This document shows, one piece after another, positions 21,507-34,895 of a stretch of 43,596 nucleotides of DNA (the stretch's first letter is position 1; every line of letters begins with the position of its first letter). The notes below the pieces were generated by a model, which saw only the letters and a program-made list of their open reading frames with translations, was not told the origin of the DNA and made no database searches. Source of the DNA: Candidatus Parcubacteria bacterium (GTDB taxonomy: Bacteria; Patescibacteriota; Minisyncoccia; Phycocordibacterales; UBA2100); assembly GCA_003599295.1 (NCBI GenBank), contig QZJK01000018.1, positions 1-43,596 on the forward strand, read 5' to 3'. The position numbers and the translations under genes are program-made.

Positions 21507-21588
21507 TGGGCGAGGAGGGACTCGAACCCTCACGGATTGCTCCACACGGTCCTAAGCCGTGCGCCTGTACCAATTCGGCTACTCGCCC
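21507..21588 (-). tRNA. tRNA-Leu (anticodon UAG)
   Basis: Acceptor GGGCGAG/CTCGCCC, long variable arm, anticodon loop CTTAGGA, T-arm GGTTCGAGTCC. Confidence 0.93.
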
Positions 21589-22223
21589 CTCAATAGCTTC
21601 ATCGCAATTTTCCGTTTTCGCGATAGAGCTGGCAAGGATTTCTCATAATACATCAACTGCAAAATACGGGTAGAGTCGGCTTTCCCGAAAGAGAGCATCT
21701 GTACGGACTTATTCTTTAGAGTATGAATATGCCCGCCCTTTATCATAAAAAGTCGCTTTACAACTCCTAGAATCCAGATTAAGAATGCTGGACTCGCAGA
21801 TGCTATCCGGAGGCGTACTTGAGGAAACTGACTCTCTGGATGCCAAAAGGTACCTAGGCTACCATCACCATCGAAGCACCCTCGCAGGAAATCTCTGAAA
21901 AATTCGTCTGGTACAGCTACCTCTTTAATCGTCTTTGATTTTTTTGGCGTAAGGCCGATGGAAATCAGGAATTCGTAGAAATTCATGTCTCCAAACTGGA
22001 GTACAAAATACTTTTTCTCTTTAGAATACCCACGCGCCTTACGGCCGATCTTGTTTTTAAGTCTGAGGATTTTCTTCGCCATCTTGATTATCTCGAGGTC
22101 TTTCGAAGTGATATTTATATGGCGACCGCTGGACGAGAGATTACCATCTGAAGCGATTAAACCAATCACATAAGCGAACTCGGGCGACCACACTGAATAA
22201 GTATTCGATTCTCTTTTCCTCAC
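21579..22223 (-). CDS. LAGLIDADG homing endonuclease
   Basis: Two dodecapeptide-like motifs, YVIGLIASDGNLS and FLRGCFDGDGSLG, both with acidic residue; GTG start 6 nt after TATAAT; stop codon lies inside the 5' part of tRNA-Leu(UAG). Confidence 0.85.
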   Translation of the reverse strand: MRKRESNTYSVWSPEFAYVIGLIASDGNLSSSGRHINITSKDLEIIKMAKKILRLKNKIGRKARGYSKEKKYFVLQFGDMNFYEFLISIGLTPKKSKTIKEVAVPDEFFRDFLRGCFDGDGSLGTFWHPESQFPQVRLRIASASPAFLIWILGVVKRLFMIKGGHIHTLKNKSVQMLSFGKADSTRILQLMYYEKSLPALSRKRKIAMKLLRGE

Positions 22224-22305
22224 CAAACAATTATACTACGCCATAAAGCGTATACCATTGGCACTCGCTAAAAAGAGGTTCTTTGGAAAGTAAAAGCGTT
22301 ATTTT

Positions 22306-22327
22306 GTCCGCCCAGTTGGATATGAAC
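22306..22327 (-). repeat. partial second copy of the tRNA-Lys 3' end
   Basis: GTCCGCCCAGTTGGATATGAAC matches 22456-22477 at 20/22 positions. Confidence 0.85.
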
Positions 22328-22330
22328 TAC

Positions 22331-22385
22331 TGGGAAACCCACGGTTTTCCCACTCCTTCCTCCGCGGAAAACCGGCAGGTTTTCC
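22331..22385 (-). repeat. double-hairpin repeat copy A
   Basis: TGGGAAACC-CAC-GGTTTTCCCA, linker CTCCTTCCTCCGC, GGAAAACC-GGCA-GGTTTTCC; reverse complement of the layout in copies C and D. Confidence 0.8.
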
Positions 22386-22456
22386 AACCCTTTCCTATTC
22401 GAATCCAAACGAAAAACACCCAGCATTTTTCTCTGGGCGTCCTTCGCTTCGTTCAG

Positions 22457-22529
22457 TCCGCCCAGTTGGATTCGAACCAACGACCGTTCGCTTAAGAGGC
22501 GACTGCTCTACCAACTGAGCTATGGGCGG
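22457..22529 (-). tRNA. tRNA-Lys (anticodon CUU)
   Basis: CCGCCCA acceptor, D-arm GCTCAGTTGGTAGAGC, anticodon loop CTCTTAA, T-arm GTTGGTTCGAATCCAAC. Confidence 0.93.
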
Positions 22530-22602
22530 GTTAGGAAGATTTTACACGAATCCGCGTTTTTTGGAACCTTAGCGTTTCGAGTGCCGTGCTTTTGCACGGC
22601 AT

Positions 22603-22670
22603 CACAAATCCCCGTGGAGGAAGGTTTGGGAAAACCGAGAGGTTTCCCAGACGGGGGTCGGGGATTTGTG
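22603..22670 (+). repeat. double-hairpin repeat copy B, modules in permuted order
   Basis: CACAAATCCCC...GGGGATTTGTG arms enclosing TGGAGGAAGG, TGGGAAAACC-GAGA-GGTTTCCCA and GGGGGTCGGGG. Confidence 0.75.
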
Positions 22671-22751
22671 CCGGGGGTGGGACTCGAACCCACAAACCTG
22701 TGAAGGTCAAAGATTTTAAGTCTTCCGCGTAAACCATTCCGCCACCCCGGC
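22669..22751 (-). tRNA. tRNA-Leu (anticodon UAA)
   Basis: GCCGGGG acceptor, anticodon loop CTTAAAA, long variable arm, T-arm GTGGGTTCGAGTCCCAC. Confidence 0.93.
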
Positions 22752-27244: not shown

Positions 27245-29950
<2,706 letters not shown>

Positions 29951-29959
29951 GAAATTATT

Positions 29960-30057
29960 GTGCGCCGGGAGGAGGATTAGGCCAAGCGCTCGAAATTTCG
30001 CCGTCGCAAAATTTCTCCGCTCGGCCCTGCTCGCGCGACCCGTTCTACTGAACGGGT
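29960..30057 (-). repeat. double-hairpin repeat copy E with partial copy of the tRNA-Tyr 3' end
   Basis: GTGCGCCGGGAGG at 29960-29972 is identical to 30136-30148; hairpins GAAATTT..AAATTTC and ACCCGTTC-TACT-GAACGGGT; linker GAGCAGGGCCGAGCGGAG (minus strand) resembles copy D. Confidence 0.6.
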
Positions 30058-30099
30058 ACCCCGCGCTCCCTTTCGAATTCCACCCTGCTGAAAATAGCA

Positions 30100-30126
30100 C
30101 AAAGTCGGAGACACGCTCCGACTTTG
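30100..30126. terminator. hairpin terminator downstream of tRNA-Tyr
   Basis: 11-bp stem CAAAGTCGGAG-ACACG-CTCCGACTTTG. Confidence 0.7.
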
Positions 30127-30136
30127 GCAATTTTAG

Positions 30137-30702: not shown

Positions 30703-30861
30703 ATGTCCCAAGATCAACTCATAAAACTGGCGTGCCAGAAGTGCGGCCGCACGAACTATTGGTCGCGCAAGAACAAGAAACTCGTAGAGCGCAAAATAGA
30801 GATCAAGAAATACTGCAAATGGTGCAGGGCTCATACAAAGCATAAGGAATCCAAAAAATAA
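30703..30861 (+). CDS. rpmG: 50S ribosomal protein L33
   Basis: MSQDQLIKLACQKCGRTNYWSRKNKKLVERKIEIKKYCKWCRAHTKHKESKK with two CxxC motifs. Confidence 0.92.
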   Translation: MSQDQLIKLACQKCGRTNYWSRKNKKLVERKIEIKKYCKWCRAHTKHKESKK

Positions 30862-30880
30862 TACTGCACCATTTGCAGTA

Positions 30881-30946
30881 GGAGGGGGTCGGGGAACCTG
30901 TCGGTTCCCCGTGAAGGAAGGAATGGGAAAACCGTGGGTTTCCCAG
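30881..30946 (+). repeat. double-hairpin repeat copy C
   Basis: GGAGGGGGT, CGGGGAACC-TGTC-GGTTCCCCG, TGAAGGAAGGAA, TGGGAAAACC-GTG-GGTTTCCCA. Confidence 0.85.
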
Positions 30947-30956
30947 AACTGCTGGT

Positions 30957-30997
30957 GGTGCAGGGCTCATACGAAGCATAAGGAAAGCAAGAAATAA
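30957..30997 (+). repeat. second copy of the L33 gene 3' end
   Basis: 41 nt, 37/41 identical to 30821-30861; still reads ...CRAHTKHKESKK*, with only synonymous differences. Confidence 0.9.
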
Positions 30998-34685: not shown

Positions 34686-34766
34686 CGCAACGTGAAGAGA
34701 ATTCCGCCGTTTATTGCTTGCGCAGAATACCTCGCGGCAGAGCCGCGAGGATGAATGCGCAGGAGC

Positions 34767-34848
34767 GGAGGGGGTCGGGGAACCGCGTTCGGTTCCCCGT
34801 GGAGGAGAGCAGCGAGCGGAGCGAGTGTTGAGAACCGACGGTTCTCAA
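34767..34848 (+). repeat. double-hairpin repeat copy D
   Basis: GGAGGGGGTCGGGGAACC identical to copy C over 18 nt; CGGGGAACC-GCGTTC-GGTTCCCCG; linker TGGAGGAGAGCAGCGAGCGGAGCGAGTG; TTGAGAACC-GAC-GGTTCTCAA. Confidence 0.85.
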
Positions 34849-34895
34849 AAAATGAGATACCGCAACAGCTGGGCTAGCGCAGTATCTCATTTTTT
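34847..34895 (-). terminator. topA terminator hairpin
   Basis: 14-bp arms AAAAAATGAGATAC (34847-34860) and GTATCTCATTTTTT (34882-34895); the topA stop codon lies in the stem. Confidence 0.7.

Follow-up and report, generated by a model that had tools for sequence, protein, structure and literature searches.

Small non-autonomous units at tRNA and coding-gene ends in Patescibacteria, possibly integrated as folded single strands

In the window analysed here, a 43,596-nucleotide stretch that is contig C8 of the 716,511-base genome of a Candidatus Parcubacteria bacterium (18 contigs; 97.9% complete), the tRNA-Lys(ctt) gene is followed by a second copy of its own 3′ end. With slightly less than even confidence, this feature is read as one copy of a family of non-autonomous units that would be integrated as folded single strands by a recombinase acting in trans. 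The family, its anatomy, the position of the crossover, and the import of a gene end are supported by the results, and the mobility of the units is well supported; a single-stranded intermediate and the identity of the enzyme are what we infer from the analysis as a whole.

The tRNA-Lys unit

The intact target, tRNA-Lys(ctt) (22456–22529; ARAGORN, and 69.4 bits with the Rfam tRNA model), lies on the minus strand, as do all parts of the unit. Its 3′ part from the T-loop to the end, termed X (22456–22477), is matched by two further segments, x′ and X″. In gene direction, X is followed by a spacer, D (22411–22455), whose sequence contains a terminator-like hairpin (CGCCCAG...CTGGGTG) and a T-run; by x′, an inverted copy of the T-arm (TTGGATTCGAA; 22396–22410; 11/11 match to X); and by the adjoining core, placed at 22327–22401 (91 bits) by covariance model R1, which was built from seven copies in this genome. 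The core comprises hairpin H1 (GGAAAACC TGCC GGTTTTCC; 22366–22385), upheld by covariation over 78 cores; a conserved purine linker, GCGGAGGAAGGAGT (22352–22365; family form GTGGAGGAAGG); and hairpin H2 (GGGAAAACC GTG GGTTTCCC; 22332–22351). The unit ends in X″ (22306–22327), a direct copy of the tRNA-Lys 3′ end with AT in place of GA in the T-loop. This order had been described in the first-pass annotation, together with a T-arm-like piece; the order holds on the minus strand, and the piece (22396–22410) proves to be the inverted T-arm copy.

X″ (GTCCGCCCAGTTGGATATGAAC) agrees with the tRNA-Lys(ctt) 3′ end (GTCCGCCCAGTTGGATTCGAAC) at 20 of 22 positions, as first reported, and the chance expectation for such a match is about 1e-5 for both strands of the window. 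The insert between the tRNA 3′ end and its copy measures 130 bp. Overlooked earlier was that the two mismatches fall exactly on the T-loop bases (GA to AT); most other tRNA units, and those of rpmG and rpsI, likewise show a small change at this crossover spot. Relative G018 provides an empty site, in which tRNA-Lys(ctt) is followed by 100 nt and then by tRNA-Leu(tag), with insert and copy both absent; relative G009 has a unit at its tRNA-Lys(ctt), and not every relative has the fragment. A degraded tandem tRNA-Lys was rejected as an explanation: the copy covers no more than the 3′ 22 nt, and an equal insert is found at unrelated genes.

Between X″ and tRNA-Leu(tag) lies a free-standing LAGLIDADG_3 homing endonuclease open reading frame (ORF) of 215 aa (21579–22226, minus strand). 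It is missing from the corresponding place in G009, and the LAGLIDADG_3 ORFs of relatives are mostly located between tRNA genes.

A family spread over Patescibacteria

Patescibacteria make up a large, mostly uncultured share of bacterial diversity and have very reduced genomes. When the core was used as a BLAST query against the genome, 11 places were found (tRNA-Lys, Asp, Gln, Val, Pro, and Glu, rpmG, rpsI, and others), and the covariance model found 17 core copies in the same 717-kb genome and the core itself in 42 of 60 relatives. Across the phylum, it is present in 25 of the 287 genomes sampled. A pattern scan of GTDB genomes returned more than 100 matches and, among the matches listed, all named records were Patescibacteria (Kaiser-, Taylor-, Nomura-, Zambryski-, Yonath-, Wolfe-, Vogel-, and Falkowbacteria). 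The roughly 130 units, spread over many genomes and each about 110–250 bp long, share one anatomy: an intact gene end X, a short spacer D, an inverted partial copy x′, the core, and a direct copy X″. Presence at any given gene is patchy among relatives, and the target genes differ between species; similarity between cores is weakly structured, at 0.71 by genome and 0.75 by target against a background of 0.69.

The core has no match in IMG/VR viral contigs, INPHARED phages, or PLSDB plasmids. With Rfam, only tRNAs exceeded the gathering score in the window, and the rpmG unit gave no near-threshold match; a literature search, covering open-access papers only, found no description of such a unit family. 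The family is a sequence-defined component of patescibacterial genomes, and apparently one undescribed to date.

Two origins had originally been suggested for the tRNA-Lys feature. That of a remnant of a larger tRNA-targeted element was rejected: the roughly 130 units are all small, and there is no version with cargo between X and X″. The other, a non-autonomous unit, is borne out by the conserved family, the precise crossover in the T-loop, the empty site in G018, and the lack of a recombinase in or beside the units. Targeting is not specific to tRNA genes; rpmG, rpsI, and the 5′ ends of several coding genes are entered likewise.

A conserved scaffold between two arms

The conserved scaffold consists of GGGTC, H1, GTGGAGGAAGG, an optional hairpin, and H2, and is placed between two arms that match the target, namely x′ (inverted) and the start of X″ (direct). 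In 78 aligned cores, pairs within H1 and H2 show double-sided changes (for example, GC 42/AT 34; CG 47/AT 27; GC 36/TA 36/CG 4), and both GGGTC and GTGGAGGAAGG are single-stranded and almost invariant. Pair counts over these cores comprise 1182 Watson–Crick, 20 G·T, and 3 A·C; the predominance of G·T over A·C (p = 0.0005) indicates that the written strand folds, either as RNA or as single-stranded DNA. Many copies contain an extra variable hairpin within the linker, CA[hairpin]GTTGG, and two copies in the same genome have H1 opened and the remainder closed, in the manner of a circular permutation.

A second unit in the window (30812–30997, plus strand) follows rpmG, the gene for ribosomal protein L33 (30703–30861; Pfam PF00471). 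Here X comprises the last 16 codons and the stop (30812–30861), x′ (30862–30880) contains 17 nt fully complementary to X, and the core (30875–30949; 96.6 bits) leads into X″ (30948–30997), which differs from X, to the right of the crossover, by three synonymous and no non-synonymous codon changes. The predicted fold (z −4.9) is a three-way junction that the arms x′ and X″ close through a stem containing a mismatch. The element order of the tRNA-Lys unit had been claimed for L33 and tRNA-Tyr alike: it is clear at rpmG, and only partial at tRNA-Tyr, where a degenerate unit (29946–30135, minus strand) retains the end copy and a T-arm-like inverted piece, with a core too degenerate for the covariance model to recognise.

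Insertions also occur within the scaffold. In a tRNA-Asn unit (L346:2055-2800), both the linker and the H2 loop are extended by long inserted hairpins; after the unit come a reading frame that resembles GIY-YIG but is broken (judged by eye) and another inverted piece resembling a T-arm.

Arms, targets, and crossover

Arm statistics were obtained from 133–134 distinct units, with randomly swapped partner units as controls. In 71% of units, x′ matches its own upstream gene (score ≥10), compared with 10% when partners are swapped, and matches of X″ to its own upstream gene score more than 11.5 in about 85 of 134 units, compared with 5 for swapped partners. Duplexes between x′ and the right arm average −21.3 kcal/mol, against −15.1 kcal/mol for swapped pairs. 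Arm sequences vary with the target gene (the tRNA T-arm, TACTGCAAATGG, CCGCAGTGG), and the targets are diverse: tRNAs of 31 anticodons, the 3′ ends of rpmG and rpsI, and, in antisense orientation, the 5′ ends of GTPase, RNase H, and glycosyltransferase genes.

In alignments, x′ is a perfect match to X from the T-loop onward, whereas the match of X″ to X begins immediately to the right of a short altered stretch. This stretch reads GTTCGAATCC and is replaced by GTTCATATCC or GTTCTTATCC; in rpmG units, TGCAAATGG is replaced by TGC(TGG/TTG/TTA)TGG. Since x′ is perfect and X″ matches only past the changed stretch, the right arm would pair with x′ around a small crossover bubble, and a bubble beside the crossover is seen in tRNA, rpmG, and rpsI units. 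In the main class of tRNA units, 15 nt separate the start of X″ from the tRNA end (T-loop 59/60); X″ starts also peak at 22 nt from the end, which corresponds to GTTC carried by the right arm.

One right-arm variant, GAGATAGCGAAGCG, forms a mini-hairpin exactly at the crossover and is common to several species (L290, L253, L306, L314, L258, L259, L269, L257, and L360). Three units (L064, L080, and L082) adjoin a conserved GGAGCTCGCACCCGTCCTxCGC, which is neither a tRNA nor evidently coding and is possibly an RNA of unknown kind.

Origin of the two gene-end copies

Codons of X and X″ were compared in 22 units at coding genes, with blocks and frames set by hand and some units sharing ancestry. 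The two copies differ by 108 synonymous and 15 non-synonymous codons (65:7 at 3′-end, sense targets and 43:8 at 5′-end, antisense targets); under random drift, about one-quarter of differences would be synonymous (p about 1e-48). X″ is therefore no decayed local duplicate: each copy derives from a functional gene, and the two genes belong to different lineages. Local duplication was thus rejected as the general origin at coding targets. X″ continues into native flank (rpsI–grpE, rpmG–tRNA-Trp), and the same flank directly follows the gene in element-free relatives. Third positions of differing codons are G or C in 60 of 93 cases in X″ and 35 of 93 in X, in 15 hosts with a third-position GC content (GC3) of at least 0.50. 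The native flank and the GC3 bias together suggest, by sequence comparison, that X is usually an import and X″ the host's own old gene end.

Some units look recent and local. In L066, L368, and the tRNA-Val unit, X is duplicated together with the downstream terminator (D) in near-identical form. Genome G102 has near-identical cores at tRNA-His, Arg(cct), Glu, and Arg(tct), each with local X and D. In the same genome, perfect tandem arrays of the whole X-D-x′-core unit occur at Arg(cct) (L355:2263-2661) and Glu (L356); the Arg(cct) array has a 163-bp period and 2.4 copies, the final copy stopping right after GGGTC.

Candidate enzymes

No ORF lies between X and X″ in any unit, and an all-against-all ORF comparison, together with a Pfam scan of 127 right-flank ORFs, found no recurrent enzyme beside units, only orthologous host neighbours such as GrpE after rpsI and MiaA after rpmG. 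A search of the genome for integrases, as the first-pass annotation had advised, found a single tyrosine recombinase, unlinked to any unit. Among the 60 relatives, tyrosine recombinases were detected in 57 (usually one each), serine recombinases in 42, Y1 transposases in 44, LAGLIDADG_3 in 35, and IS110 in 4; IS110 was found 0 times in the genome of the window.

Several unit carriers lack one or another of these families: LAGLIDADG_3 was not detected in G025, G031, and G047 (17, 12, and 8 units), serine recombinase in G003, G009, and G051 (5, 7, and 5 units), or Y1_Tnp in G047 (8 units), G040, and G004. Hence none of the three is needed in the cell now hosting a unit, and of the families tested, only tyrosine recombinase accompanies the units almost everywhere.

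Large serine recombinase genes (about 500–600 aa) extend up to or into tRNA 3′ ends (Ala, Glu, Ser, and Asp) at L348:4022-5836 (minus strand), L341, L347, L349, L339, and L340, which suggests serine integrases with tRNA targets in Patescibacteria. As movers of the units they were rejected, with no core or X″ found alongside them.

Proposed mechanism and its rivals

Under the reading proposed, a unit would move between sites as single-stranded DNA. By mutual pairing, its arms would form a stem that has a small bubble of mismatches where the crossover takes place and thereby mimics the target site, and a recombinase supplied in trans—most likely of the tyrosine type, either host Xer or that of another element—would read the constant scaffold and swap one strand with the target, after which replication would fix the insert. 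The arms would pick the target, and a change of arms would re-aim the unit, which would account for one scaffold in dozens of genes. As the sequences show, the target gene stays intact because the unit side brings a fresh end, X, with X″ being the recipient's old end. The opposed target-like arms, the crossover bubble, the branched end, and the precise, gene-restoring crossover make up the anatomy of a folded single-stranded attachment site like integron attC and CTXφ attP(+); on this basis, coupled with targets like those of tyrosine integrases, integration of a folded single strand is proposed. A broader version is a possibility held with less assurance: a re-targetable system in which a conserved folded scaffold with exchangeable arms inserts as a single strand into almost any conserved gene end, with no protein of its own and a recombinase borrowed from the host or other elements.

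Several observations weigh against this mechanism. No enzyme is linked to the units, either within or beside them; the near-universality of tyrosine recombinases (57 of 60) renders their co-occurrence uninformative; and G007 has five units with no tyrosine recombinase detected. A single recombinase would also need to accept very different sequences, nor was an excised form seen, no reads being available. The glycosyltransferase units have no clear bubble, and the lowest-energy DNA fold of the tRNA-Lys unit has H1 paired with H2, which are able to pair mutually, in place of the junction. The proposal is weakest where it meets the near-identical G102 cores, each with local X and D, and the D duplications: these favour some form of duplication when new targets are entered, a step that plain circle integration lacks.

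Spread by natural transformation is unlikely, though the most probable of the rivals. The gene body and X″ would offer conserved homology on either side, and incoming DNA would recombine by ordinary or homology-facilitated crossovers, left in the gene and right in X″, with no dedicated recombinase today and a fold that serves another role or is a relic. A double crossover would likewise yield an imported X and a native X″, the targets are the most conserved gene ends, no enzyme is linked, and competence genes are widespread in Patescibacteria (PMC12455944). Homologous crossovers should scatter, however, and the breakpoints fall at one T-loop base in many tRNAs; X″ is coding-like from its first codons, and the target-matched x′, the bubble, and the near-identical G102 cores at different tRNAs are left unexplained. 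Those same G102 cores, found at several tRNAs together with the local X and D, speak for a more doubtful alternative, RNA-mediated or primer-type insertion, in which a folded RNA (or cDNA) would anneal by its 3′ arm and prime synthesis, X-D being a long target-site duplication and x′ arising from fold-back. The strong bias of G·T over A·C and the near-identical duplications of X with downstream D (L066, L368, and the tRNA-Val unit) fit this route, but the synonymous divergence between X and X″ implies that most coding-gene units were not locally duplicated, and 5′-end targets are antisense to their gene.

That antisense placement also tells against a host RNA element kept by selection for 3′-end processing, termination, or decoy function, with the gene-end copies as by-products. 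The position of most units after tRNA and ribosomal genes and the conserved single-stranded GGGTC and GTGGAGGAAGG would suit such an element; its patchy presence at a given gene among relatives and its placement at different genes in different species would not, and it is judged improbable. Least probable of all is that the units are scars of homing endonucleases (LAGLIDADG, GIY-YIG) or of large serine integrases attacking tRNA ends. The tRNA-Lys unit does have a LAGLIDADG ORF directly beyond its X″, a few others are located up to 2 kb from units, and large serine recombinase genes terminate at tRNA 3′ ends; yet the unit carriers without LAGLIDADG_3 or without serine recombinase listed above contradict it, homing endonuclease (LAGLIDADG) loci free of units have no X″ end copies, and no enzyme family recurs beside units.

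Comparison with known systems

Folded integron attC sites are defined by a bubble and a variable terminal structure (PMC2727003). The units resemble them in having one folded strand, paired arms, an unpaired central spacer, and a terminal structure, with shape recognition permitting sequence diversity; the folded stem with an unpaired spacer is found in the arm pairing, the crossover mismatch, and the junction fold of the rpmG unit. Unlike attC, the units have no linked IntI/attI platform and no RYYYAAC/GTTRRRY boxes, their arms follow the target gene, their targets are many gene ends, and the terminal structure, variable in attC, is the conserved part. The attP(+) site of CTXφ has opposed arms around a 90-bp hairpin, with unequal centres (PMC3089051), and this site and those of integrative mobile elements exploiting Xer (IMEX) share with the units two opposed arms some 70–100 nt apart whose pairing makes the site, a central mismatch, and the lack of an own integrase. 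They differ in that all identified unit targets are tRNA or coding-gene ends rather than dif, no phage genome is present, and the arms vary between units.

Streptococcal tyrosine integrases use the 3′ ends of tRNA-Lys CTT, rpmG, and rpsI, and some 5′ ends (PMC4701971). As with these integrative and conjugative elements (ICEs), the units share target genes, restore the gene end, and leave a direct repeat; unlike ICEs and integrative mobilisable elements (IMEs) at tRNA genes, they have neither integrase nor cargo, use one scaffold for dozens of targets, and carry the inverted arm x′. Repetitive extragenic palindromes (REP/REPIN) and miniature inverted-repeat transposable elements (MITEs) are similarly small, non-autonomous, hairpin-rich, and multicopy; in contrast to REPIN/RAYT systems, the units have target-matched arms and a long gene-end copy, no GTAG-type foot, and a presence independent of Y1 transposase. 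The bridge RNA of IS110 and the dual guides of TIGR-Tas (compared by published description only) also place two target-matching segments on one folded scaffold; IS110 is nevertheless almost absent (4/60; 0 in this genome), and the units differ from bridge RNAs in arms that pair mutually and in the long gene-end duplication. The units lack a defining feature of each of attC, IMEX, ICE/IME, REPIN, and IS110 and match no Rfam family; their anatomy is judged to be new, though they may still work like a known system.

Other units in the window

Beside tRNA-Leu(taa) lies a circularly permuted core with H1 opened and H2 closed (22588–22671, strand unassigned; 29.8 bits). A third core (34761–34852, plus strand; 66.1 bits) is situated downstream of topA and belongs to a subfamily with fixed flanks, ...TGCGCA and AAAAAATAAAAT..CTCG, which occupies intergenic sites, with several copies in one genome (also L079, L081, and L022 in G031).

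Implications

Even under another mechanism, the family remains a sequence-defined component of these genomes, and the enzyme is now a well-posed question: a protein that binds the junction of GGGTC, H1, GTGGAGGAAGG, and H2. If the proposal is true, a phylum-wide class of mobile units in Patescibacteria would find its targets through short arms attached to an unvarying scaffold and would carry gene ends between species. Such targeting would be new to site-specific recombination, and the units would provide a source of exchange at tRNA and ribosomal genes.
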